From assembly GCF_004362195.1 (NCBI RefSeq), contig NZ_SNWG01000001.1, positions 248,001 through 312,000 on the forward strand: a stretch of DNA of 64,000 nucleotides, read 5' to 3'. The notes beneath the pieces are model-generated. The model saw nothing but the letters and a program-made list of their open reading frames with translations, was not told the DNA's origin and searched no databases. The DNA comes from Microbacterium sp. BK668. Lineage in GTDB: Bacteria > Actinomycetota > Actinomycetes > Actinomycetales > Microbacteriaceae. Position numbers and translations under genes: made by a program. Shown here one piece after another: positions 1,317 through 13,892 of the stretch (the first letter of the stretch is position 1; each line of letters opens with the position of its first letter).

Positions 1317-3554
1317 ATGTTGATGTGGACAGAGCGAGGACGGGGCATGCAGACGCGCTCCCGTCGAATACTGGTGGCGATGACCACCGCTGCGGCGTTG
1401 GGCGTATCCACCCTCCTCGCGGCGCAGCCGGCCGCGGCCGCCGAGGACCCGTGGGTCGCCGAGGTCGACAACGTCGTCCCGGACGTCTACCGTTTCTCCG
1501 TCCCCGACTCGGCGATCCAGCCGGCGACGGGCATCAACGGGAGCGTCGTGGCGGTGGAGGGCAACTTCGCCCCCGGCAAGACGTGGACCACGCTCAACAT
1601 GGGTTCGAGCAATACGCCGAACGGCCGAGTCTGGTCGACGACTCTCGGACCTCTCGAGCCCGGCCTGTACTACTACCAGTACTCCGCTCGTCCGGCCTGG
1701 AACCAGGATGCGATCGCCTTCCGCAACCCGGCGAGTCCGCAGGAGGTGACCTCGAAGCCGACCTGGAACACCCTGTTCGTCGACGGTCCGGGCGCCGAGT
1801 GGCTCGCCGACGTGCCCGACGGAGGGGCGCTGACGGATCTCACGTACCGGAGCTCCGTCACCGGCGGAGAGCGCTCGGCGCTCGTATGGACGCCCCCGGG
1901 CTATGACGAGAACCGCGCTGAACCCTACCCCGTGCTCTACCTCCTGCAGGACGAGGGCCAGAGCTATCGCGAATGGGTGGAGCTCGGGCGACTGAAGCAG
2001 ATCCTCGACAACCTGACAGTCGACGGCGACGCCGAGCCGATGGTCGTCGTCATGGGTGACGGCCAGTCGGATGAGATCCGCGGTGAGGTGGTCAAGAACC
2101 TGCTGCCGGCCGCGGAAGGGTCGTTCAACATCTCGAGCGACGGCGACGATCGCGCCATCGCCGGCATCGGGCGAGGGGCTTCGCAGGCTCTTCAGCTCCA
2201 GGTGAACGCGACGGGAGAGTTCGCGAATGTCGGCTCGTTCTCAGGCCGGCTCGAGCAGAACATCGGCAAGGGCAAGGCGCGGCAGATCAACAACGCGACC
2301 GACCTCATCCGTCTTTACGTCGGCAACGTCACCGATCCGCGATACAACGCGACCGTGAGCCTCGCCGACAAGCTCGCGAAGGCCGGCGTCGAGTTCCAGT
2401 CGGACGGCTCCGACCCGGAGACGGGGGGCACGTGGGACACGTGGCAGAAGAATCTGCACGACTTCGCGCAGCGTGTGTTCCAGGAGCCGGGCGACACAGG
2501 ACCGAGCGAGGGCCACCTCGCGCTCGAGCCGCACGCGCTTCCGGCGCCCGGCACGACCCCGACGCCGTGGATCGATGAGAACGGCGTCGTGACGTTCGAG
2601 ACCGGCACCGAGTTCGCCGGCGCGAACAACGTCACGGTGTGGGGCAACTTCGGCCCCGCCGGGAGCTGGCCGCGCACGCCGATGACCAAGCAGCCGGACG
2701 GGCGCTGGCGCCTCACGATGCCGGTCGAGGCGGGTTCGTACTACTACAAGTTCGTCGTCGAGGGCTCGGACCGCAAGGACACCGCCAACCCGACGACCGT
2801 GCTCTCGGAGCCCAACTGGAGCACGTTCCAGGTTCCCGGCGGCGAGACGCTCCGTGGCGAGTACACGACGCCGGTCGCACCCGAGGCGCGGGGCCACGTC
2901 CAGGTCATGGACTACACCAGCAGCGCGAGCGGCAACCCCACTCGCTCGGCGTACGTGTGGACGCCCCCGGACTACGACCCCGAGCGCGCCGAGGCCTATC
3001 CGGTGCTGTACCTCCAGCACGGTGGCGGACAGACGTGGACGGACTGGATCCAGGTCGGCTTCGCCGCCCAGATCCTCGACAATTACTACGCCAAGGGGAA
3101 CATCGTCCCGATGGTGGTCGTGATGGCCAACGGCAACGGCGTGAACTTCCCCAACGAGATCACGCAGCGCATCACGGTGGCCGCCCAGGCGCAGTACAAC
3201 GTCAGCGGCGACCCCGCGGATCGTGCCCTTGCGGGCCTGTCCATGGGATCGCAGGCGGCACTGAGCACCATGTACACGTTCCCCGGCCAGTTCGCCTACA
3301 TCGGTGCGATGTCTGCATTCACCAATCCTCCGGCGAGTGCCGATGTGACGGCGATCAACGACGGCACGGAGCTCCTGCGCATCTACTCGGGTGACATCCA
3401 GGACTTCACCTACCAGCAGACGCTGGGCCTGGTCACTGCGCTGAACAACCGGGGGATCGAGCACGAGTTCGCGCCGATCATCCCCGGTCCGCACAGCTGG
3501 GACGTCTGGCAGAAGGCGTTGATCGACTTCCTGCCGCGGTTGTTCGAGGGGTGA
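1317..3554 (+). CDS. Secreted tandem esterase (enterochelin-esterase-like), first domain inactive
   Basis: The 745-residue product has an export signal (hydrophobic core about residues 18-35, Ala-rich cleavage region near 40). After it come two copies of the same module: a beta-sandwich domain of the CBM48/E-set type and an alpha/beta-hydrolase esterase domain of the Fes/esterase D family. In the second copy the nucleophile elbow GLSMGS has Ser642, and His726 lies in GPHSWD. In the first copy the elbow reads GIGRGA, with Gly285 in place of Ser, and the His-bearing loop reads GGTWD. The first module is therefore probably non-catalytic, perhaps binding substrate. GAGAGG (1305-1310) supports the ATG at 1317; an ATG at 1347 is possible. 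Substrate is unknown; acylated polysaccharide or siderophore esters are family precedents. Confidence 0.8.
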   Translation: MLMWTERGRGMQTRSRRILVAMTTAAALGVSTLLAAQPAAAAEDPWVAEVDNVVPDVYRFSVPDSAIQPATGINGSVVAVEGNFAPGKTWTTLNMGSSNTPNGRVWSTTLGPLEPGLYYYQYSARPAWNQDAIAFRNPASPQEVTSKPTWNTLFVDGPGAEWLADVPDGGALTDLTYRSSVTGGERSALVWTPPGYDENRAEPYPVLYLLQDEGQSYREWVELGRLKQILDNLTVDGDAEPMVVVMGDGQSDEIRGEVVKNLLPAAEGSFNISSDGDDRAIAGIGRGASQALQLQVNATGEFANVGSFSGRLEQNIGKGKARQINNATDLIRLYVGNVTDPRYNATVSLADKLAKAGVEFQSDGSDPETGGTWDTWQKNLHDFAQRVFQEPGDTGPSEGHLALEPHALPAPGTTPTPWIDENGVVTFETGTEFAGANNVTVWGNFGPAGSWPRTPMTKQPDGRWRLTMPVEAGSYYYKFVVEGSDRKDTANPTTVLSEPNWSTFQVPGGETLRGEYTTPVAPEARGHVQVMDYTSSASGNPTRSAYVWTPPDYDPERAEAYPVLYLQHGGGQTWTDWIQVGFAAQILDNYYAKGNIVPMVVVMANGNGVNFPNEITQRITVAAQAQYNVSGDPADRALAGLSMGSQAALSTMYTFPGQFAYIGAMSAFTNPPASADVTAINDGTELLRIYSGDIQDFTYQQTLGLVTALNNRGIEHEFAPIIPGPHSWDVWQKALIDFLPRLFEG

Positions 3555-3594
3555 CGCCCCAGCCGGCATCCCGGTCGAGATGACGACACCGTGG

Positions 3595-3617
3595 GGGCGA
3601 GGGCAGCGCTCTCGCCC
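3595..3617. terminator. Hairpin between convergent genes
   Basis: GGGCGAG (3595-3601) pairs with CTCGCCC (3611-3617) around a 9-nt loop, between the converging ends of the esterase and response-regulator genes. There is no T-tract, as is usual in this GC-rich genome, so termination is inferred from structure and position. Confidence 0.4.
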
Positions 3618-3676
3618 TCACGGGCCGTCGGCAGGGCCGGACATCGCCTCCCGTTCCGCGGTCGAGTTCGCCGCGG

Positions 3677-4330
3677 TCACTGCCTCGTCTCCCGCAGGTA
3701 GAGGAGCGCGGCCAGCACGCGGCGATGCGAATGGGTACTCGCGGTGAGCCCGAGCTTGTCGAAGACGTTGGCGACGTGCGATTCGACCGTCCGCTCGCTG
3801 ATGAAAAGCCTGGCTCCGATCCCTTCGTTGGTGAGCCCCTCGGCGACGCAGGCCAGCACATCCCGCTCGCGCGGGGTGAGAGCATCCAACGCCCCATCGG
3901 GCCGCGGCCGATGCATGAGCCGCGCGACGATGGTCGGGTCGACCACCGTCTCGCCCTCAGACAGGCGTCGCAGGGCGTCCGTGAGGACCGCCAGCTCGTT
4001 CACACGCTCCTTGAGCAGATACCCCGTGCGCTCGGGATAGTCGGTCAGCATCCGCATCGCGTACGCCGGCTCGAGGTATTGCGAGAGGATCAGAACGGCC
4101 GTGCCCGGATAGTCGCGACGGATCTCACGGGCGGCCACGATCCCCTCGTCGCGGTAGGTCGGCGGCATGCGGATGTCCACGATCGCGACATCGGGCCGAT
4201 ACTCGGCCACGAGTCGGAGCAGGGCCGCACCATCGGATGCCGCTCCCACGACGTCCAAGCCGGCGTCGGCGAGCAGGAACGCGAGGCCCTCCCTCGTGAT
4301 GAGCGTGTCATCGGCGATCACGGCGCGCAT
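3677..4330 (-). CDS. NarL/FixJ-type response regulator
   Basis: The 217-residue product has an N-terminal receiver domain (acidic pair ADD at 6-8, phospho-acceptor Asp52 in VDIRMPP, Lys107 in YLLKE) and a C-terminal LuxR-type helix-turn-helix (LTPRERDVLACVAEGL from 151, recognition helix near SERTVESHVANVF). It should act as a DNA-binding transcription factor switched on by phosphorylation. Its ATG at 4330 overlaps the end of the histidine kinase gene by 13 bp, so the two are translationally coupled and almost certainly partners. Longer upstream in-frame starts only read the kinase gene in another frame. Likely targets are the divergent lipoprotein genes at 6193-8696, but this is inference. 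Confidence 0.92.
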   Translation of the reverse strand: MRAVIADDTLITREGLAFLLADAGLDVVGAASDGAALLRLVAEYRPDVAIVDIRMPPTYRDEGIVAAREIRRDYPGTAVLILSQYLEPAYAMRMLTDYPERTGYLLKERVNELAVLTDALRRLSEGETVVDPTIVARLMHRPRPDGALDALTPRERDVLACVAEGLTNEGIGARLFISERTVESHVANVFDKLGLTASTHSHRRVLAALLYLRETRQ

Positions 4331-6027
4331 GGGACCACCGCCGTGACCGTGTCGCCATGCCTGTCGACTCGGCCGCCGAGGACGCCGATCTCGTCGAGGA
4401 TCGCGGCGGGAGGCGACTCGCGAGCGCCCGACAGCACCACCCGTGCATCGCCGCCGATCGAGACGTCGACCGTGAGCGGCGCACCGCCGTCGCTCGCGGC
4501 TCGCACCAGTCGGTAGAGCGCGTGTTCGACCGGCATGGGAGCCCGCTCGCCGGCAACGGTGACCGACAGGGGCCGCGTGCTCGCAAGTTCGCGCAGGGCT
4601 TCGCTCAGGCCGACGCCGTCCAGCAGTGCGGGATAGACGCCGTGCGCGAGCTCTCGCGCGCGGCCGTGGGCGCGGGTCAGCGCTCGTTCCAGGCGATCCG
4701 CCTCGGGTGACGGGCCCTTGTCCGCGCGAAGTCGCGCGAGTTCGAAGAGCGCCGCCACGAGACCCGCCTGCACGCCGTCGTGCAGTCCTCTCTCGATGGC
4801 GTGCCGCTCCGTCGAGGATCGGTCGACGATCGCCCGTCGGGTCGCCTCGAGTTGATGGCTGCGGTGAGCCATCTCGGCGAACCACCGCTCGTTGTCGATC
4901 GCGAGGCTAGCGCTCTCGCCGATCGACCGGACGGCGACGGCGGCCTCGTCCGCTCGGCGGCTCGTGGCGATCATCGCGAGCGGTCGACCACGGCGCGACA
5001 GCCGGATGCGGGTTGCACCGTGGGGCGCGTCGGCGAAGGCCCCCTGTTCGTCGACGAACCGTCCGGCCTCCGGGATCCAGAATCCAAGCGACAGGGACGG
5101 ATCGTCGAGGATCGCCGCAAGGCGAGCACGAAGCCCTCCAGGCTCGGCCTCGTGCCCGATCCGGCGCGTCAGCTCGCGGACCGCCCGCAGCCGTCTCGCG
5201 AGCGCCGCCCCCGCGACCAGGGCGGTCGCCCCCAGCGCGACGTAGGCCAGCAGACGCACCAGGTCCCAGGCCAGCAGAGCATCCGAGCGGGCGAGTACGG
5301 CGACCCCCCGGATCGTCTCGGCGAGCAGCGTCGCGGTCGCGGCCCCGAGGACTGCCGGGCCGAACCACGCGTCGGCCGCAGGTGCGCCTGTACGCGCGCG
5401 TGCCCACAGCAGAGCCCCCGCCAGCGCGGATGAGGCGGCGAGTGCGGCGAGATACCACCCCGAGAGAGCCGCCGACGTCGCGGGCGAGGGAACGGCGATC
5501 CAGCTGTCGAGCCCGCAGTCGTACCTGCAGGCGAGATCGTAGAGCGGAACCCTCACCAGCGCGATTGCGGCCGCGAGCACACCGATGGCCACCGCAACGC
5601 CGATGGACGCGCGGCGGAGCCACCCCACCCAGAGCGCTTCCTGCTCCGCCGCACCGGAGGCAGGCGCCGAGTTCCGCGGGGGCAGCGTGAGCACGACCAC
5701 GGCCACGGGCGCCGCGAGACCGATCGCGGTGAGGACCGTGCGGGCGACGGGTGGTGTGAGCGGCGCGTTCCGGAGGATCTCGGCCTGCAGCGCGAGCGCG
5801 GATGCGGAAAGGGCGATGACCTGAGCCGGCCGGATTCCGGTGACGGCGAGGACAGCGGATGCTGCGATCAGCATCGCACCCGCCATGACGTGGGCGGCGA
5901 ACAGCACCTCGCTCGCCGTCGACGACGCGCGTGGCTCGGACGTGGCGCCGAGCCATCCCGCCACGAGCATGGCGGCGATCGCGAAGAGGATCGCGATCGC
6001 ACCCCATATGCGCGCCTGGCGCCGCAT
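4318..6027 (-). CDS. Membrane histidine kinase with phospho-accepting His but decayed ATPase domain
   Basis: The 569-residue product has about eight predicted membrane helices in its first 300 residues and a GAF-like segment around 320-390. A HisKA_3 dimerisation box ERHAIERGLHDG follows, with His416. The C-terminal catalytic region is short and lacks the expected motifs: the N-box (EALTNAxKHA in relatives) reads VRAASDGG, the DDGRGG loop reads LSGARES, and the GTGL lid motif is absent. By itself it should not bind ATP normally. The neighbouring kinase at 8614-10095 has exactly the opposite defect. The ATG at 6027 lies 6 nt behind the -10 box CAGAAT, which has TTGACG 17 bp upstream, suggesting a leaderless transcript. 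It is cotranscribed with the response regulator. Confidence 0.88.
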   Translation of the reverse strand: MRRQARIWGAIAILFAIAAMLVAGWLGATSEPRASSTASEVLFAAHVMAGAMLIAASAVLAVTGIRPAQVIALSASALALQAEILRNAPLTPPVARTVLTAIGLAAPVAVVVLTLPPRNSAPASGAAEQEALWVGWLRRASIGVAVAIGVLAAAIALVRVPLYDLACRYDCGLDSWIAVPSPATSAALSGWYLAALAASSALAGALLWARARTGAPAADAWFGPAVLGAATATLLAETIRGVAVLARSDALLAWDLVRLLAYVALGATALVAGAALARRLRAVRELTRRIGHEAEPGGLRARLAAILDDPSLSLGFWIPEAGRFVDEQGAFADAPHGATRIRLSRRGRPLAMIATSRRADEAAVAVRSIGESASLAIDNERWFAEMAHRSHQLEATRRAIVDRSSTERHAIERGLHDGVQAGLVAALFELARLRADKGPSPEADRLERALTRAHGRARELAHGVYPALLDGVGLSEALRELASTRPLSVTVAGERAPMPVEHALYRLVRAASDGGAPLTVDVSIGGDARVVLSGARESPPAAILDEIGVLGGRVDRHGDTVTAVVPCAP

Positions 6028-6033
6028 GGTCTG

Positions 6034-6062
6034 ATTCTGGAAGCGCGGGCGGACGCCGTCAA
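6034..6062 (-). promoter_or_regulatory. Leaderless promoter of the kinase-regulator operon
   Basis: On the minus strand TTGACG (6062-6057) and CAGAAT (6039-6034) are separated by exactly 17 bp, and the kinase ATG begins 6 nt after the -10 box, where transcription would start. Confidence 0.55.
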
Positions 6063-6192
6063 CGCTTCCGGACGATGACCCGTGCCAGCACGGAGACACC
6101 GCGGAGAACCGGGTGCGGGCACGGTGGGTCGAGGATCTGCCTCCCCATAGCGTCGGTTCATCGGACACAATCGATCCTGTAAGGAGCCGACG

Positions 6193-7596
6193 ATGGCCAT
6201 CCGGACACTCCCCGCGATCGCCGCCTTGACGGCGATCGCGCTCGGCAGCGCCGCGTGCACGGCGAACCCCACGGCGGAGGCGGCGGCCGAGGCGGTCACC
6301 CTCACCATCGGAACGGACGACAGCCCCGGCGTGCCCGCCGCCGACCAGATCACCGCACTGGCGGCCGAAGCGGCGAAGTCGGGAGACGTCGTGCTCGAGC
6401 CGGTGTGGCACGCCGCCGGCGACACCGCCGACTGGGACCAGGCGATCGCCCGGATGGTCGTGGACAGCGAGCTCGACCTGGCGGTGGTCCCGTCGCGGGC
6501 GTGGGCGAGCCTGGGCGTGACCAGCCTCGACCCGCTCACCACCCCTTTCCTGATCCAGAGCGATGAGGCGCTGGATGCCGTGCTCAGCGACGATGCGGTG
6601 ATGACGCCGATGCTTCAGGGCCTGGATGAGCTGGGGCTGGTGGGGATTGCGGCGATGCCCGAAGGGCTGCGGCGACCGTTCGGCTATCACGGCCCGCTGG
6701 TGGATCCCAAGGATTATGCGGGCGGAACCGTCCGCTCAGCCACCGCCGAGGTGAACCGAGCGCTCTACGAAGCGCTCGGGGCCGGCGCGGTGACCGACGA
6801 GCACCCCGACTTCGAGAAGCACCTCGGCACCGACTCCTCCTACTTGCTGGATCCGTACGGCACCGCGACGGGGAACGTCGTCTTCTACCCGAAGGTCAAT
6901 GTGCTCGTCGCGAACGCCGATGCGTGGGCGTCTCTCGACGAGCGGGCCCGGCAGGCGATCACCGAGGCCGCGGGCGCGACCCGGGAGTGGGTGCGCGAGA
7001 ACCAGCCCACAGACGCCGACGCCGCGAACGCGTGGTGCGCGGGCGGCGGCTCGATCGTGGCGGCCACCGCGGACCAGGTCGCCTCCTTCCGGGCGGCCGC
7101 TCAGCCGGTCGTCGACGCGATCGCCGCGAATGGCGGCAACGCCGACATCATCGCGGCGATCTCCGAGGTCGTCGCCGGCGTTTCCGCGCCGGACCCCGTT
7201 ACGGGGTGCGAGACGACGACGGCCGGCCCAGGGTCGGACACCTCCATCGCCGGCACCTACCGCTGGGAGGTAACCGCGGAGGTGCTCGAAGCCGCGGGCG
7301 TGTCAGCCGACCAGTGGTGCCCCGAAGTCTGCGGCATCTACACGCAGACCCTCGTGGCCGACGGCACGTGGACCCACCGGTGGGAGGATCCGGACGGAAA
7401 GGGCGAGTCCGTGTCTGCACACGGCACGTGGTCGTTCGACGGAGAGAACCTGATCAAGGAGGAGAGCGGGTATCAGGCTCTCTCCATGGTCGTGCGGCCT
7501 GACGCCGCCGGCAACCTCACGGTCACGCCGTTCGGCGACTTCCCCGAGATCGACGTGCTGGCGATCACAGCCACCCCCTGGATCAAGGTGCAGTGA
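6193..7596 (+). CDS. TRAP-type solute-binding lipoprotein with C-terminal lipocalin-like domain
   Basis: The 467-residue product has a lipoprotein signal with lipobox GSAAC (Cys22). A DctP-like TRAP substrate-binding domain follows to about residue 340; ALYEALGAGAVTDE and the segment VFYPKVNVLVANADAWASL are typical. A further 110 residues start at GTYRWEVTAEVLEAAG, rich in short beta strands and ending in WIKVQ, suggesting a small lipocalin-like barrel. TRAP binding proteins normally deliver organic acids to DctQM permeases, but no permease is near. Its neighbours are a two-component system, which suggests ligand sensing at the membrane surface (inference). AAGGAG (6181-6186) precedes the ATG by 6 nt. 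It is followed by a paralogue overlapping by 4 bp. Confidence 0.8.
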   Translation: MAIRTLPAIAALTAIALGSAACTANPTAEAAAEAVTLTIGTDDSPGVPAADQITALAAEAAKSGDVVLEPVWHAAGDTADWDQAIARMVVDSELDLAVVPSRAWASLGVTSLDPLTTPFLIQSDEALDAVLSDDAVMTPMLQGLDELGLVGIAAMPEGLRRPFGYHGPLVDPKDYAGGTVRSATAEVNRALYEALGAGAVTDEHPDFEKHLGTDSSYLLDPYGTATGNVVFYPKVNVLVANADAWASLDERARQAITEAAGATREWVRENQPTDADAANAWCAGGGSIVAATADQVASFRAAAQPVVDAIAANGGNADIIAAISEVVAGVSAPDPVTGCETTTAGPGSDTSIAGTYRWEVTAEVLEAAGVSADQWCPEVCGIYTQTLVADGTWTHRWEDPDGKGESVSAHGTWSFDGENLIKEESGYQALSMVVRPDAAGNLTVTPFGDFPEIDVLAITATPWIKVQ

Positions 7597-8696
7597 GCAG
7601 GGCGCGCGCGGGGATGAGGGTCGCCGGCACGCCGGCGATCCTCATCTGCGCGCTCGCACTCCTGGTCGGCTGCGACTTCGCAGCCGACTACAGCGGGACG
7701 AAGGGCGGGTCGGGCGCGCTGGCCAACGTGCACGGCTTCGCGGTCCCCGAGGGGCGGAGCAGCCCGACGGGTCGTCTGGCGCAGGCTGTCGCCCTCGATC
7801 CCCGCGGACCGGAGGCCGGCATCGTGCTGGAACCGGCATGGGACGACGGAACTCCCGACCCTTACCGCGAGGCCGACCTGGCGGAAGCTGTTGCACAAGG
7901 TGCGTCCTCGTTCGGCCTCATCCCCGCCCGCGCTTTCGATCGCTGGCCCGAGGCCTCGCTGCCCGCGCTGTCGGCGCCGTTCCAGCTTCACTCCATGGAG
8001 CAGGCTGCGGCCGTTGCGCGCAGCGGGGCCGTGGCCGACTACCTGTCCCGGCTCGAGTCGGTCGGTCTCGTCGGGATCGCCGCGATCCCCGAAGAGATCC
8101 GGCATCCGGCATCCCTCTCCCCCCTGCGGCATCCGGACCAGTTCCGTGCATTGCGCTTCCGGACCGCTCAGGCGGACGCTCTGTTCGAGGCCGATCTCCT
8201 CGGCGCGCTGGGAGCGACGCCGGTCGCGGACGCGCCGCCGAGTGGGATCGCTTCAGGCGAGGTTGACGCCGCCGAGACGAGCCTCGGGTGGCTTCCGACC
8301 CTCGCCGGCAACCTGACCATCACGGGCGACATCGATCTCTGGGTGAAATTCGACGTGCTGGTCGCCGATTCCGAGGCGTGGGAGGCCCTGAGCGATGCAC
8401 AGCGGGAGGCGCTGAGAGCCGTCGCTGAAGACCTCGCTCTGTCGCCCATCGACCGGGATGACGCCGCCACTCGCGCGTGCGCCCTCGGCTACCGGGTCGC
8501 CGTCACGAGCGCGGCGGCCCGCGACGCGTTCGCGGAGCGAGTGTCGCCCGCTGTTCGAGGGCTCCTCGCCGATCCGGCGCATGCTCCGGTCGTGGAGGCG
8601 ATGCGGGATGCTGTCAGCGCGCACCCTGCTCGGGAGTACGAGCCCCCGGAGCTCTGCCGTCCGCGGACGGGCGACGCGGCACGACCCGACCACTGA
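7593..8696 (+). CDS. Second TRAP-type solute-binding lipoprotein
   Basis: The 367-residue product is a shorter paralogue of the preceding lipoprotein. It has a clean lipobox LVGC and a DctP-like domain. The segment DLWVKFDVLVADSEAWEALSD corresponds to VNVLVANADAWASLDE in the first protein, and LESVGLVGIAAIPEEIRH to LDELGLVGIAAMPEGLRR. It lacks the lipocalin-like extension. The GTG start at 7593 overlaps the previous stop (GTGA), so translation is coupled. An ATG at 7614 is a possible alternative start. The gene's last 83 bp overlap, tail to tail, the end of the histidine kinase gene at 8614-10095, which can give antisense coupling. With no permease in the locus, a sensory role beside the split kinase pair is inferred. 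Confidence 0.78.
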   Translation: MSRARAGMRVAGTPAILICALALLVGCDFAADYSGTKGGSGALANVHGFAVPEGRSSPTGRLAQAVALDPRGPEAGIVLEPAWDDGTPDPYREADLAEAVAQGASSFGLIPARAFDRWPEASLPALSAPFQLHSMEQAAAVARSGAVADYLSRLESVGLVGIAAIPEEIRHPASLSPLRHPDQFRALRFRTAQADALFEADLLGALGATPVADAPPSGIASGEVDAAETSLGWLPTLAGNLTITGDIDLWVKFDVLVADSEAWEALSDAQREALRAVAEDLALSPIDRDDAATRACALGYRVAVTSAAARDAFAERVSPAVRGLLADPAHAPVVEAMRDAVSAHPAREYEPPELCRPRTGDAARPDH

Positions 8697-10095
8697 ACCG
8701 CGGCAGCCGGATCGACACCCAGGTGCCGCCCTCGACAGGCGACGTCACCTCGATCCGAGCACCGATCTCGCTTGCGCGCTCGATCATGCCGCGCAGGCCC
8801 GTCCCCCGTCGTTCGTCTGCCCCGCCGCGGCCGTCGTCTACGACGTCGAGGGTCCATGCGCCCCTTCGACGACGTCCGCCGATCCGGATCGTGGTCGCAC
8901 CGGAATGCTTGACGGCGTTGGTCATCGCTTCCGCGCACATCCGGAGTACCGGTTCGACCCACGCGAGCGGGAGGCGAGGCAGATCGCCGACCCGGACGGG
9001 GATGGGGCTCTGCGATGCAAGCCGGAGGATGCCGTCGGCCAGGCTGGGGTCGCCGGCTGCCGACAGGTCGGCCCGGAGCGCGGCGAGCTCGTCCGCAGAC
9101 TCGGCGACTCGCTGCCGGATCCGCTCGGAAGCGGGTGAGGGCGGCAGTGCCGCGAGCGCGGCATCCACTTCCGAATAGAGAGGATCGAGTTCCTCGCTGA
9201 GGAGGTCAAGGATGCGCGCACGCTCCTCGGTGTCGGCTGCCGCGAGCCTGTCCAGCGACTCGGCGAGCGCGCGCAGCCGCCCGTCCGCCTCCCGCTGGAG
9301 CCGGGCATTCGTTGCAGCGAGGCGGTCTGCGGTGGCGAGGGCGTGGATGATCGCAGGATCATCGACATCCCCCAGCGCATCGCGCAGCGCCTGCGCCGCC
9401 TCCGCGGCGGGCGAACGGCGCCGGATCTCGATGATCAGGTCGGCCGGATCCGACACGTCGGGGCGCAGCGTCGACAGCGCCAGGATGAAGGCGATCGCTG
9501 CGATCGCCGCGTCGTAGACGAGAAGACCCGCATAGACGCCGGTCGGCCCCGGGACGATGCTTCCCAGCACCTGGTATCCGGCGACGCCGATGCCGAAAGC
9601 GAGCGCGACCGCAAGCGGGGCCGACCCGGAGCGTCGAGTGCGCATGCGGAGGAGGGCCACGACGATGAGGGCCGCGGCGAGGGCGAGAGAAACGTCGGGC
9701 CGGCCCCCGAAGCTCGGGATCAGGTTGACCGCGTACCCGGCTACGACCGCGACCACCGCGAACCATGGCGCGACGGCGATCAGCGGCAAGGCGATCACGA
9801 GGTGGGCGATCGCGCCGCGGTGCCAGAGGCTCGCGACCGGGAGGGCGCTCCCCAGGAACCACAGACATCCGATGAGGAGCGCGTAAATCGTCAACACGCG
9901 CGACGACCGGGACGACAGTCCGGCCGCGGCGAAGAACAGCAACCCCACCAGGAAGTCGGGGAACCAGGACACATACGACGACGCGGACGGACTGGCGAGC
10001 GCGGCCGGGATGCCGACGGCAACGCCGAGGACCGGGATGCCGACGCTGATCGCGGTCGTCGTCGACCGATCAGCGACCCATGCGCGTGCGATCAC
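8614..10095 (-). CDS. Membrane histidine kinase with intact ATPase domain but no phospho-accepting His
   Basis: The 493-residue product has about seven membrane helices (residues 15-215) and a coiled-coil-like stretch around 250-300. The segment aligning with the HisKA_3 H-box reads EERARILDLLSEEL: Ser300 replaces the His and Glu replaces the following Asp. The ATPase domain, in contrast, is complete, with N-box CAEAMTNAVKHSG (Asn393), DDGRGG at 420-425 and GTGL at 431-434. It should bind and hydrolyse ATP but cannot autophosphorylate at the usual site. The adjacent kinase gene has His but no ATPase motifs, so trans-phosphorylation is the natural inference. The GTG start lies 6 nt behind CAGGAT (10107-10102), pointing to a leaderless transcript. 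Confidence 0.85.
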   Translation of the reverse strand: MIARAWVADRSTTTAISVGIPVLGVAVGIPAALASPSASSYVSWFPDFLVGLLFFAAAGLSSRSSRVLTIYALLIGCLWFLGSALPVASLWHRGAIAHLVIALPLIAVAPWFAVVAVVAGYAVNLIPSFGGRPDVSLALAAALIVVALLRMRTRRSGSAPLAVALAFGIGVAGYQVLGSIVPGPTGVYAGLLVYDAAIAAIAFILALSTLRPDVSDPADLIIEIRRRSPAAEAAQALRDALGDVDDPAIIHALATADRLAATNARLQREADGRLRALAESLDRLAAADTEERARILDLLSEELDPLYSEVDAALAALPPSPASERIRQRVAESADELAALRADLSAAGDPSLADGILRLASQSPIPVRVGDLPRLPLAWVEPVLRMCAEAMTNAVKHSGATTIRIGGRRRRGAWTLDVVDDGRGGADERRGTGLRGMIERASEIGARIEVTSPVEGGTWVSIRLPRFSGRVVPRRPSADGRAPGARTPEQGAR

Positions 10096-10185: not shown

Positions 10186-11088
10186 TCACAGGTCCGCGGC
10201 GTCGAGGATGCGGGCCAGCGTCGTTCGCCCCAACGCCGACATCGCGGGATTCGTGTCCCGGTAGTACCAGACCACACCCATGGCTTGCTCGAATGCCCAT
10301 GCCGCGCCGCGCCGCCACTCGAGTTCGTCGCTGCCCACCAGATCGCGCAACACCGCTCTGGCGGGCGCATCGAAGAGGTGCCACGCGACGATCAGGTCGA
10401 GCGCCGGGTCCGCACGACCGAACCCGCCGCCATCGAGCACGCCCACAAGCCGGTTCCTCCGCACGAGGAGATTGAACGGAGTGAGGTCGCCGTGACACAG
10501 AACGGATTCCGCCGGCGGCGGGAGAACGCGGAACTGCTGCCACCGTTCCGCCGCGCGGTCACGCTCGAGCAGGCCCTCGCTCCGGCGGAGGCACTCCTGC
10601 ACCCACGCGTCGTGGGAGCTGAGATCCCCGCCGCGACCGGAACCGTTCACGCGGAATCCGGAAGGATCCGTTCCACGCATACGGAGAATCAGCTCCGCCA
10701 CGTCCTCCGCGACCGCGGTGGCGTCGGCCACGCCCGTCGGAGTCGCCGTCGTACCGGCGGCCCAGCTCTGCAGCATCCACGGCATGGGGAAGCCATGTCC
10801 CGGATCCCCGATGCCAACCGGCACCGGACTGGGAAGACGTGAGACGGCGTGGAACGAGCGCAGACCGTCGGCTTCCCTCGTCAGCCACGAAGCCGCATGC
10901 TCCGGATCCTGGCGCCGCAGCGGGAACTTCGCCGCCAGCGCGGTGCCCACGCGAAAGAGCTTGCTCACGGTCGCAGGCGATCCCGATACGGGTCGCACCT
11001 CCAGCTGCCGATACTCCGGGAACTGCTCAGCGATCAGGCGTCGTACCGAGTCGATCTCGATGTCGACCTGATCATCATGAAGCCTCAC
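10186..11088 (-). CDS. Aminoglycoside phosphotransferase-like (APH) family protein
   Basis: The product of about 300 residues has the APH/choline-kinase fold signature: catalytic loop VLCHGDLTPFNLLV (HGDxxxxN) and metal-binding segment GVLDGGGFGRADPALDL, where Asp begins the usual D-W/F-G motif but Gly follows. The N-lobe includes VSKLFRVGTALAAKFPLR, with the ATP-contacting Lys in AAKFPL. Family members phosphorylate small molecules such as aminoglycosides, macrolides or homoserine; the substrate here cannot be read. The start is uncertain by one codon: TACTCT (11100-11095) sits 6 nt before the GTG at 11088, while an ATG lies at 11091. No Shine-Dalgarno sequence is visible. A farther TTG start at 11151 is unlikely. 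Confidence 0.8.
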   Translation of the reverse strand: MRLHDDQVDIEIDSVRRLIAEQFPEYRQLEVRPVSGSPATVSKLFRVGTALAAKFPLRRQDPEHAASWLTREADGLRSFHAVSRLPSPVPVGIGDPGHGFPMPWMLQSWAAGTTATPTGVADATAVAEDVAELILRMRGTDPSGFRVNGSGRGGDLSSHDAWVQECLRRSEGLLERDRAAERWQQFRVLPPPAESVLCHGDLTPFNLLVRRNRLVGVLDGGGFGRADPALDLIVAWHLFDAPARAVLRDLVGSDELEWRRGAAWAFEQAMGVVWYYRDTNPAMSALGRTTLARILDAADL

Positions 11089-11094
11089 CATGCG

Positions 11095-11100
11095 AGAGTA
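11095..11100 (-). promoter_or_regulatory. -10 box deciding the start of the APH-like gene
   Basis: TACTCT on the minus strand ends 6 nt before GTG (11088) and 3 nt before ATG (11091). The 6-nt spacing common to leaderless genes here favours the GTG. Confidence 0.4.
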
Positions 11101-11210
11101 GAGCCGCCGTGAGTCGCCTTGGGGCGTTGCCCCGATCACTCCCGATGTCAACGTGAGTTCCTGCAGCGCAGAGTCTCTTCACTCCTCGTCAACGGGTCCT
11201 CTGACGAATA

Positions 11211-11323: not shown

Positions 11324-11938
11324 TCAGGATCCGTCGCGGAGGTCGGCGAGGGTCTCGGATGCGAAGTCGATGTCGCGGAAGGACACGCGGCAGCCGGAGC
11401 CGAGGGGACTCTGCGCTTCGAAGCCGACTGCCACAGGTTCGCCCTCGAGCACGAACGCGCGCACGAACCTCCACCGCGCACCGTCGACGGACGCGTGGAA
11501 CGCGAAGACCTCCCCCACGCGAGCCACGCGCAGCCAGACGGATGCCTCGTCCAGTGCGAAGCCGTTCGCATCGTCCGACACGTCCCGCGTGACCACCGAG
11601 ACGACCATCGGCTCGCCGCCCGGCGCGTATTCCAGGCAGAGTTTCGCCCAGCGGGAGTGGTCGATCCACACGACGAGGGCGCCAGCGTCGAACGTGGAAC
11701 GGAAGTCGACGTCGACGCGCGCGCTCAGCTGGAAGTCTCCCTCAGGCGGAGTCCCGGTGAGGGTGACGGCGTTCAGCTGGGTTCCCGCGCCGACGCTGTC
11801 CGAATCGCTCGGCTCCACGAAGAGGTCGCTGTGCGGCTTCGCCGCCACCTCCACGACGTTCGCCGCGATCCGCCACTCCCACTCCTCCGAGCCGTGGAGA
11901 GCGAAGGGCAGGGAGGGGAGCGAGTAGGTCTGGGTCAT
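11324..11938 (-). CDS. DUF1349 concanavalin-like protein
   Basis: The 204-residue product resembles DUF1349 proteins, cytoplasmic beta-sandwich proteins of the concanavalin-A-like fold often found beside carbohydrate genes. Typical phrases are the early EWEWRIAANVVEVAAKPHSDLF, the central FDAGALVVWIDHSRWAKLCLE, and VSFRDIDF near the end. There is no signal peptide. The ATG at 11938 has AAGGAA 6-7 nt upstream; in-frame codons farther upstream are not supported. It lies 124 bp downstream of the GH13 gene on the same strand, so it may be the last gene of the maltodextrin operon or have its own promoter. Its molecular role is unknown. Confidence 0.8.
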   Translation of the reverse strand: MTQTYSLPSLPFALHGSEEWEWRIAANVVEVAAKPHSDLFVEPSDSDSVGAGTQLNAVTLTGTPPEGDFQLSARVDVDFRSTFDAGALVVWIDHSRWAKLCLEYAPGGEPMVVSVVTRDVSDDANGFALDEASVWLRVARVGEVFAFHASVDGARWRFVRAFVLEGEPVAVGFEAQSPLGSGCRVSFRDIDFASETLADLRDGS

Positions 11939-12062
11939 CTGCGGTTCCTTCGTGTGGAGGCGTCGCTTCATCGAGTCATCGTCGCGTCGGGCTTGGTGAC
12001 ACTGAACACCGAGTCGCGGTCGCGGCCCAGCATGCGAGTGCGGATGCCGCCGGCGGCACCGT

Positions 12063-13892
12063 CTACTGGCCGGCCGGACGCGTGACACCGGGGAGCCGCC
12101 ACGCGACGAAAGCCGGACCCGTCACCGTGGCGCTGACCTCCCCGTCCGCAACAGATAGCGCGGCCTCGCCGTGGACGAGCGCGGCGTCTTCCGCCCGGAA
12201 GAGGCCCAGCGCCTCGCACGGGATGGCCACTCGCTGTGTGCCGCCCCGCGCCGCGACGCACCACATGGTCTCGTCGAGGTGCTCGCGCACGTAGCTGATC
12301 GCGTCGTCGCTCGCATGCACCCAGCGCAGTCCGCCTTCGCGGAGAGCGGTGCTCCCCCGTCGCAGGGCGATCAGGGCCCGGTAGCGCGCGAAGGTGTCGG
12401 CGTCGCGGGACTCGGGCCGGTCCCACGGCATCGGGCGCCGCGAGTCCTCTCCGTCCACCCCTTCGCCGCCCCACTCGTCTCCCATGAACATCATCGGGAC
12501 TCCGGGGAAGGTGAACAGGATGCCGGCCGCGACGCCCGCACAGTCGCCGAGCACGGTGCGGACCCTCGCGGTGTCGTGCGATCCGATCAGTGACCATGAT
12601 GCGGTCATCTCGCGCCACGGGGTCGCCGCGATGAAGGCCGTGACCGTGGCCACCGCCGACTCGCCGGACGACCGTGGAACGTCGGCGGGCAGGCCGAGGA
12701 AGTTCGAGCGGTAGCCCGGGTAGCGCAGCCACGACCACAGCGGGCGGAGGAATCCCGCGTAGTTCATCGCGCCGTGCCAGCCTCCGGCGCGCAGATCGGC
12801 GCTGGCGTCATGGCAGTGCTCGGCGACGAGGTAGGCGTCGCTGCGCTCCTCGACCATCGCGGTGCGTAGTCGATGCGCGACCTCCCGGTTCGCGTCCACC
12901 TCTCCTTGCCGGCCGGTCATGTTAGCGACGTCGATGCGCCACCCGTCCAACTCGAACGGCGGGGCAAGCCATCGCCGCGCGACCGAGTCGGGGCCGTCGA
13001 TCAGGCGATCGAAGAACTCGTCGCTCGGGCGGAACTTCGGCAGGGTGGCAAGGGCGTACCAGCCGACGTAGGTGCCATCCGGCTGCATGAAGTACAGGTC
13101 GCGCTCCGCGGCATCCACATCCGCCCGTGCCGCGAGGAACCACTCGTGCTCCCAGCCGGAGTGGTTGGTGGTGAGGTCGCCCATCACCCGCAATCCCCGG
13201 GCGTGGGCCGCGGAGGTGAGTCGCGAGAGAGCATCGTCGCCTCCGAGCAGCGGGTCGACCTCGGAGAAGGTCGTCGAGTCGTAGCGATGCGAGGACCCCG
13301 CGGGGAAGAACGGGGTGAGGTAGATCACGTCCACCCCGAGGTCTTCGAGGTAGTCGAGCTTGCCGCCGACCCCGTCGAGGTCGCCTCCGTATACCTGGTA
13401 GGCGACATCCGGGCGGCGCTGCTCGACCGGGTCATCCCACCCGCTCGCGACAGCCCACGACGGGAGCTCGCGCTCGGAGGCGGCATCCGAGCGGGCGAAG
13501 CGGTCGGGGAAGATCTGGTACACGACGGCGCTCGTCACCCACTCGGGGGCAGGGTCGCTGACCAGCAGGGTGAAGTCCTGATCGTCCGGCACGTCGTGCG
13601 CGACCAGCCCGCCACCGGTGAACCACGAGTATCCCTCGTCGGCGCTGAGCAGCCAGCGGTACCGCATGACGGGGTTGTGCACGGTGACGCGGGCGCGGTA
13701 CCACCACCATCCCGCGTGCTCGCCAACGCGTTCGGCCGCGTCGTACCAGGGTTCGGCGTCGGGCGCGGATCGCACCCAGACGGCCGGTGGGGCCTCGGCG
13801 TCGGTGACGCGCAGCCAGAGCGTCACGCGTTCGCCCAGCCGGGGGGAGCGGGTCGACACGTAGAGAGAAGATCCGTCGTGGTGTGCGTGCAT
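12063..13892 (-). CDS. GH13 alpha-amylase-family enzyme (neopullulanase/cyclomaltodextrinase type)
   Basis: The 609-residue product has an N-terminal E-set domain (residues 1-120) and a (beta/alpha)8 barrel with all four GH13 regions: DLTTNH, GWRIDVAN (nucleophile Asp), LVAEHCHD (acid/base Glu) and IGSHDTAR (third Asp). The early VYQIFPDRFA and HRYDSTTF are typical of enzymes that open cyclodextrins, pullulan or maltodextrins. There is no signal peptide, so it acts inside on imported oligosaccharides. It follows the two permease genes with almost no gap. Three ATGs stand close together (13901, 13898, 13892); AAGGGA at 13906-13901 is best spaced for 13892. Substrate preference within GH13 is not decided by sequence. 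Confidence 0.9.
   Translation of the reverse strand: MHAHHDGSSLYVSTRSPRLGERVTLWLRVTDAEAPPAVWVRSAPDAEPWYDAAERVGEHAGWWWYRARVTVHNPVMRYRWLLSADEGYSWFTGGGLVAHDVPDDQDFTLLVSDPAPEWVTSAVVYQIFPDRFARSDAASERELPSWAVASGWDDPVEQRRPDVAYQVYGGDLDGVGGKLDYLEDLGVDVIYLTPFFPAGSSHRYDSTTFSEVDPLLGGDDALSRLTSAAHARGLRVMGDLTTNHSGWEHEWFLAARADVDAAERDLYFMQPDGTYVGWYALATLPKFRPSDEFFDRLIDGPDSVARRWLAPPFELDGWRIDVANMTGRQGEVDANREVAHRLRTAMVEERSDAYLVAEHCHDASADLRAGGWHGAMNYAGFLRPLWSWLRYPGYRSNFLGLPADVPRSSGESAVATVTAFIAATPWREMTASWSLIGSHDTARVRTVLGDCAGVAAGILFTFPGVPMMFMGDEWGGEGVDGEDSRRPMPWDRPESRDADTFARYRALIALRRGSTALREGGLRWVHASDDAISYVREHLDETMWCVAARGGTQRVAIPCEALGLFRAEDAALVHGEAALSVADGEVSATVTGPAFVAWRLPGVTRPAGQ

Follow-up and report, generated by a model that had tools for sequence, protein, structure and literature searches.

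A candidate two-protein membrane histidine kinase accompanied by TRAP-type lipoproteins in Microbacterium sp. BK668 and other actinobacteria

The window analyzed here is a stretch of 64,000 nucleotides from Microbacterium sp. BK668 (contig NZ_SNWG01000001.1, positions 248,001 to 312,000). Between its positions 3677 and 10095 it carries five genes, namely for a response regulator, a sensor kinase (kinase A, the product of 4318-6027), two DctP-family lipoproteins and a second sensor kinase (kinase B, the product of 8614-10095). The two kinases have lost complementary residues: A has its phospho-accepting histidine and lacks the motifs for ATP binding, and B has these motifs and lacks the histidine. 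Both losses are conserved in other genomes, the two proteins are co-inherited and the pair is tied to the lipoprotein genes. Histidine kinases are generally homodimers in which both halves do the same jobs. Here, we consider it probable (roughly three chances in four) that A and B form a hetero-complex in the membrane with B phosphorylating A in trans, that A serves the regulator with the lipoproteins as co-receptors, and that this pair is old and was inherited together.

Reciprocal loss of residues in the two kinases

Kinase A contains an H-box with the typical HD motif (H416-D417); N, G1 and G2 boxes were looked for in this protein and none was found. In the Pfam scan it reached 21.4 bits for HisKA_3, just under the cut-off of 24 (26.4 bits, thus over it, in the genome scan), and HATPase was not matched. 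In kinase B all three ATP boxes are intact (Asn393, DDGRGG at 420 and GTGL at 431) and HATPase_c is matched with 34.6 bits, above the cut-off; the Pfam scan gave no match to HisKA_3, and Ser300 occupies the site of the phospho-acceptor histidine. By profile and by motif neither a usable histidine in B nor an intact ATP site in A was found. The original prediction had described both kinases in this way, with a regulator coupled to A and two lipoprotein genes between the kinases, and re-reading of the residues bears it out. The regulator gene starts within the last 13 nucleotides (nt) of kinase A (a 13-nt overlap) and its Asp52 was correctly named, the gene (3677-4330) lying mostly outside the range then described; both lipoproteins match the DctP family and have a lipobox cysteine (Cys22 and Cys27). 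The heteromeric sensor with phosphorylation in trans that was proposed on this basis is supported as far as sequences go.

Structure models show about eight helices ahead of the cytoplasmic part in both A and B, and a simple hydropathy count of membrane helices gives 5 for A and 8 for B. The model of B is similar to nucleotide-bound VraS and DesK. In the model of A the core of the ATPase domain is kept, its binding motifs being gone by sequence. The A-type proteins share a Cys-x3-Cys element (residues 167-171 of window A) in a loop of the membrane domain, with C171 invariant and C167 invariant or nearly so; from the inferred topology this loop is probably extracytoplasmic.

The same genome contains the module twice. 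In the genus search two matches over nearly all of A were obtained within the window genome, and in the genus sample of 99 genomes a match covering most of A was present only there. Locus L063 (contig C1, 938000-952000) represents a second complete five-gene set with two DctP lipoproteins, B2, A2 and a regulator. B2 has aspartate in the histidine column and intact ATP motifs; in A2 ERDLHDGLQQDL is present, the ATP motifs are absent and the HisKA_3 score is 21.3 bits. The genes of B2 and A2 share 4 nt, and there is a further overlap between A2 and its own regulator. Directly downstream, on the opposite strand, lie genes taken for an ABC-2 type (ATP-binding cassette) permease and an ABC ATPase.

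Three relatives of A (50-51% identity) have an intact H-box and lack the ATP motifs as A does, and two relatives of B (52-61% identity) are without the histidine. Proteins of the A type are present also in two Kribbella strains. Since relatives show the same pattern and the whole set recurs elsewhere, chance or sequencing error is excluded. The loss of a normally essential part from each kinase could also mean that both are duplicates on the way to pseudogenes, and the A of locus L125 is indeed broken (by a frameshift or an assembly error). Such decay is contradicted by conservation, as there are two full copies in one genome and the same pattern persists at 50-61% identity, and by H-box residues that are invariant in the A's of several genomes; we regard it as most improbable.

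Distribution of divided modules

We searched the phylum (396 genomes) with profiles of A and B. A second A profile was used on 27 genomes of one order, 3 of another, 198 from the order of the window and 374 from its class; these sets overlap. For many of the best hits the surrounding stretches were taken; the phylum searches, listed in part, contributed 14 regions. Where the two profiles hit the same place, a one-protein kinase was assumed; sites such as G434, G219, G195, G324, G316, G295 and G323 were left out. The search of the window's order gave 8 rows (2 from the window genome, 5 examined, G365 left out) and that of the class 46 (40 newly examined, 4 already in the set, G333 and G365 left out). 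Kinase core, lipoprotein, regulator and receiver profiles were then applied to a total of 63 stretches, among them the window, L063 and L001.

The split type was found in 14 of these 63 stretches (window, L063, L124-L130, L152, L154, L165, L166 and L176). They belong to 10 genomes, i.e. the window genome and nine others, four being outside the window's class; L128 and L129 come from different contigs of the same genome. Both kinases occur in 10 stretches, only B in L128 and only A in L129, L130 and L176. Among all A's derived from loci the histidine is present in 13 of 13 and the N-box asparagine in none (0/13), the counts for L129, L130 and L176 being circular because these stretches were assigned by the pattern of A itself. 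The B's have N, G1 and G2 boxes in 11/11 and the histidine in 2/11; in the other nine Ser, Asp, Arg, Gln, Tyr or Ala stands in its column. Restricted to the ten stretches with both kinases, the counts are 10/10 (histidine of A), 0/10 (asparagine of A), 10/10 (motifs of B) and 2/10 (histidine of B). Six other locus A's score 35.0-41.7 bits for HisKA_3.

A further residue distinguishes the two proteins. In HisKA_3 kinases a glutamine at position H+5 positions the water for the phosphatase reaction, as does Gln193 of DesK (PMC5231405, excerpt). Of the 11 locus A's included in the tree 10 have it, the exception being window A with alanine, and among 11 B's it occurs in one (L165). The residue pattern together with the glutamine kept in the A's makes A look like the regulator-facing and B like the ATP-facing subunit.

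Both kinases, regulator and lipoproteins are conserved together in other genomes. The predicted five-gene set recurs, and elsewhere it usually includes an extra gene for a single-domain receiver. The most frequent arrangement has receiver and B, then one or more lipoproteins on the opposite strand, then A and regulator (L125, L126, L127, L152); it is seen also in L124 up to the contig end and, minus the receiver, in the window. In L154 and L165 A is followed by lipoprotein, receiver and B, in L063 the lipoproteins precede B, A and regulator, and L166, a 5-kb contig, has receiver, B, A. In L125 the lipoprotein (2202-3814) and A (5167-6843) are each in two frames, owing to a frameshift or an assembly error. 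Of the 49 non-split stretches, 3 have two kinase-like frames: L001, L153, where an ATP domain is carried by the second frame, and L179, which seems to hold a single kinase disrupted by a frameshift. The database protein P0052 (349 amino acids) has precomputed HATPase_c, receiver and LuxR-type DNA-binding domains; a His domain is not listed.

Phylogeny and co-inheritance

The tree was reconstructed from 72 proteins (22 A's, 25 B's and 25 one-protein kinases, 18 of the latter from the loci) by a quick method with no bootstrap; the A's of L125 and L130 were left out, and database-derived A and B rows had been sorted by motif or domain annotation beforehand. The A's form one clade with a support of 100 in the Shimodaira-Hasegawa-like approximate likelihood ratio test (SH-aLRT) and the B's another (99), with the one-protein kinases in between. 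With only the region before the H-box the group of A's is retained (99); the B's are split by the free search, and a tree constrained to keep the B's as one group is 30 log units better (p 0.88 in the approximately unbiased test).

Distances among the A's follow those among their partner B's (Mantel r 0.925, permutation p 0.0001, 10 loci with L129/L128 taken as an assumed pair from one genome). In genome G204, which carries two modules, the two A's belong to different subclades and the two B's to subclades that match them. Since these modules sort with their own partners, the agreement in branching is more than species history.

TRAP-type lipoproteins

The two window lipoproteins match PF03480 (DctP) with 66.9 and 41.2 bits (cut-off 23.4), and the solved structure closest in sequence to the first is 4p47, a binding protein of the tripartite ATP-independent periplasmic (TRAP) type (E 5.1e-12). 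Lipoproteins of this type are found in 11 of the 14 split stretches and in none of the 49 others (Fisher p 5.9e-10). The three split stretches without one (L128, L129 and L166) are cut by a contig end or represent a short contig. The arginine in GLR is kept in all 14 lipoprotein frames that cover its position. A second arginine, which we take to be the TRAP signature arginine, is kept in 4 of 14 frames, i.e. in both window lipoproteins, in one of the two in L063 and in L152. The signature arginine has a role in carboxylate binding. Ligands of these lipoproteins may differ between lineages.

DctM had no match in the window genome, the same search being positive in 7 of 14 control genomes; DctQ was not searched for. 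It is absent also from 8 of the 9 other module-bearing genomes, some of them incomplete, and G600 has one. Because DctM is mostly missing from genomes with the module, the lipoproteins are probably sensory and not parts of a transporter. For TRAP binding proteins that lack a permease, this would mean a likely role in sensing.

Proposed mechanism and alternatives

We suggest that A and B descended from one-protein HisKA_3 sensor kinases with the work divided between them. Both proteins would pair via their dimerisation helices in a membrane hetero-complex, where B is predicted to bind ATP and to phosphorylate His416 of A in trans. From phosphorylated A the phosphoryl group would then go to Asp52 of the NarL-type regulator encoded with it. 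The two lipoproteins, outside the membrane, may signal to the membrane domains that a ligand (perhaps a carboxylate) is bound.

Several observations weigh against this scheme. Window A is without the H+5 phosphatase glutamine, which leaves the switching-off of the signal unexplained, and co-inheritance alone does not prove physical contact. The B's of L124 (LHDG) and L125 (LHEG) retain the histidine, and two A-like database proteins have retained ATP motifs, namely P0013, which lies inside the A clade, and P0011, which matches the A profile with 6e-169 and was left out of the tree. These four exceptions warn that the division is not absolute everywhere; we read them as intermediates or looser forms. 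Finally, at 9 of the 11 loci with B a single-domain receiver with intact aspartate and lysine stands at B's start. It is superfluous to a scheme of A and B and, like the two B's with a histidine, leaves room for a relay.

Such a receiver may be a phosphate sink or a pointer to a relay in which A is a Spo0B-like phosphotransferase. Spo0B consists of a His-bearing helical bundle and a dead ATPase domain with no sensor region, and it obtains its phosphate from a single-domain receiver. Transferred to the module, another kinase would feed the receiver, the receiver A and A the regulator, and B would only modulate. A's dimerisation helix with a dead ATPase core is reminiscent of Spo0B as generally described. 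At L001:5316-8711 of Kibdelosporangium banguiense a 193-amino-acid A-like protein has a NarL-type regulator on one side and a single-domain receiver on the other, with a complete kinase adjoining. It has an intact H-box and the N-box asparagine, has lost G1 and G2 and is without a membrane part, and the locus looks like a relay of the Spo0F/Spo0B style. In the window genome, in contrast, a receiver was found beside neither module, and the ATP motifs present in 11/11 B's would be unneeded for pure modulation. Several one-protein kinases (L131, L134, L173 and L178, for example) have the receiver with them too, so it is probably older than the division into A and B. We therefore think this relay, the main rival, unlikely.

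The two proteins might also act separately. B would then be an allosteric partner that binds ATP (similar to DivL or the ChrS pseudokinase), and A would receive its phosphate from some other kinase or work only as a phosphatase. Allosteric pseudo-histidine-kinases are discussed in the literature (PMC9491836, excerpt), and among the eight HisKA_3 matches of the genome, two of which are A and A2, six others could phosphorylate A. What speaks against this view is the reciprocal loss, which goes in the same direction throughout the modules examined and comes with matched branching, together with the gene overlap in L063; a role of A as phosphatase only is unlikely here, window A having no phosphatase glutamine. 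Separate action thus appears quite unlikely to us.

Phosphorylation of A by B in trans would offer a natural way to connect a single output with two membrane sensors and at least one ligand-binding lipoprotein. With paralogs that have lost opposite half-reactions, and possible intermediates surviving, the evolution of obligate heteromers becomes directly testable.

Gene arrangement

Coordinates are collected in Table 1. The second lipoprotein and kinase B are convergent and their tails overlap by 83 nt. The G+C content is 69.8%, and the named relatives of both kinases are actinobacterial. In the divergent region between kinase A and the first lipoprotein an imperfect inverted repeat (6036-6052/6056-6072) has 17-nt arms that are 76% complementary; positions 6036-6072 are a possible candidate site for the regulator. 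By Pfam the flanking genes encode PPK2 (296-1174) and a putative esterase with a glycogen-binding-like domain (1317-3554) on one side, and an APH-family phosphotransferase (10186-11151) and a DUF1349 protein (11324-12088) on the other.

Table 1. Features of the window module and receiver frames at other loci
Feature	Position	Strand	Remarks
NarL/LuxR-type response regulator, 217 amino acids	3677..4330	-	phospho-acceptor Asp52
Kinase A, 569 amino acids	4318..6027	-	helical membrane domain, linker domain, HisKA_3 helix (His416), reduced ATPase domain without N, G1 and G2 boxes
Divergent intergenic region, 165 bp, kinase A / first lipoprotein	6028..6192	.	imperfect inverted repeat
First DctP-type solute-binding lipoprotein, 467 amino acids	6193..7596	+	lipobox Cys22, extra C-terminal stretch
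Second DctP-type lipoprotein, 367 amino acids	7593..8696	+	lipobox Cys27, 4-nt overlap with first lipoprotein
Kinase B, 493 amino acids	8614..10095	-	helical membrane domain, dimerisation helices (Ser300 at His site), intact HATPase_c
Receiver frame, L124	6482-7435		Asp and Lys intact
Receiver frame, L125	107-655		Asp and Lys intact
Receiver frame, L126	7111-7719		Asp and Lys intact
Receiver frame, L127	12889-13488		Asp and Lys intact
Receiver frame, L128	7081-7575		Asp and Lys intact
Receiver frame, L152	3776-5668		Asp and Lys intact
Receiver frame, L154	7619-8083		Asp and Lys intact
Receiver frame, L165	12323-12775		Asp and Lys intact
Receiver frame, L166	3454-3864		Asp and Lys intact

Comparison with known systems

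Histidine and ATP domain on separate proteins are found in the module as in other split kinases, strictly so in the window and with 2 of 11 locus B's keeping the histidine, and the genes are inherited together. As precedent the original prediction had named CheA3/CheA4 of Rhodobacter; its list was too short, as HK1/HK2/TcrA of Mycobacterium tuberculosis and the cyanobacterial Hik36/Hik43 belong there too. In CheA3/CheA4 of Rhodobacter sphaeroides one protein has the histidine and the other the ATP domain, neither works alone, and modelling predicts ultrasensitive or bistable behaviour for split kinases (PMC3591291, excerpt). As far as this excerpt goes, A/B is similar in the divided histidine and ATP domain and in the output to a response regulator. 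It differs since CheA3 and CheA4 are cytoplasmic chemotaxis proteins without whole domains, whereas A and B, as HisKA_3 paralogs in the membrane, are of full length with residues lost and are accompanied by a NarL-type regulator and lipoproteins. The CheA domains P1-P5 are not seen in A/B; neither a CheA nor an Hpt domain appeared in the Pfam and NCBIfam scans (E up to 1), which gave HisKA_3 and HATPase_c instead.

HK1/HK2/TcrA is said to be a two-protein histidine kinase made of fragments of one kinase, with one regulator and no TRAP-type lipoproteins. By this description only, it resembles A/B as a two-protein kinase with one regulator; excerpts of two reports name it, as Rv0600c-Rv0601c-Rv0602c (PMC9274095, PMC8965865). 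Hik36-Hik43/Rre6 of Synechocystis was recognized by two-hybrid analysis as a split kinase with regulator (PMC7656254, excerpt) and differs from A/B, on the same partial source, in being a CheA homolog split into two genes. Among one-protein kinases the profile of B's matches the dimerisation and ATP domains of DesK (E 3.7e-22) and the profile of A's only its His helix (1.9e-4); in contrast with A and B, DesK and VraS have both activities in one protein.

ChrS and HrrS of Corynebacterium glutamicum reportedly belong to the HisKA_3 class. Laboratory evolution yielded a ChrS pseudokinase beside active HrrS; the native proteins heterodimerise, ChrS's own histidine is dispensable and a truncated form shows no significant heterodimer (PMC9491836, excerpt). 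As far as this excerpt describes ChrS/HrrS, both systems have a kinase whose ATP domain is dead next to a paralog that is active; unlike A/B, the ChrS/HrrS case is laboratory-evolved. Spo0B shares the dead ATPase core with A and differs from it by A's large membrane region. DctB of Bacillus subtilis is said to be a DctP-family protein. In DctB-DctS-DctA it is a co-receptor for the kinase (PMC6978683, excerpt), and a co-receptor with a membrane kinase is what the window module has in common with this system, whose kinase, from the same excerpt, is single, complete and of another class, and which includes a transporter.

Among the papers listed by our literature searches, several of these lists being capped and judged by titles and abstract openings, none was seen to combine TRAP-type lipoproteins with a membrane HisKA_3 kinase that is divided. 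On balance we favour, with some reserve, an undescribed old class of obligate heterodimeric membrane histidine kinases in actinobacteria. It would have arisen by duplication of a HisKA_3 kinase, after which one paralog became the phospho-acceptor that faces the regulator and the second specialised as ATP subunit; in parallel, permease-free TRAP binding lipoproteins would have been captured as co-receptors. Split kinases as such are already known, and it is the membrane HisKA_3 form with TRAP-type lipoproteins that appears to be new.

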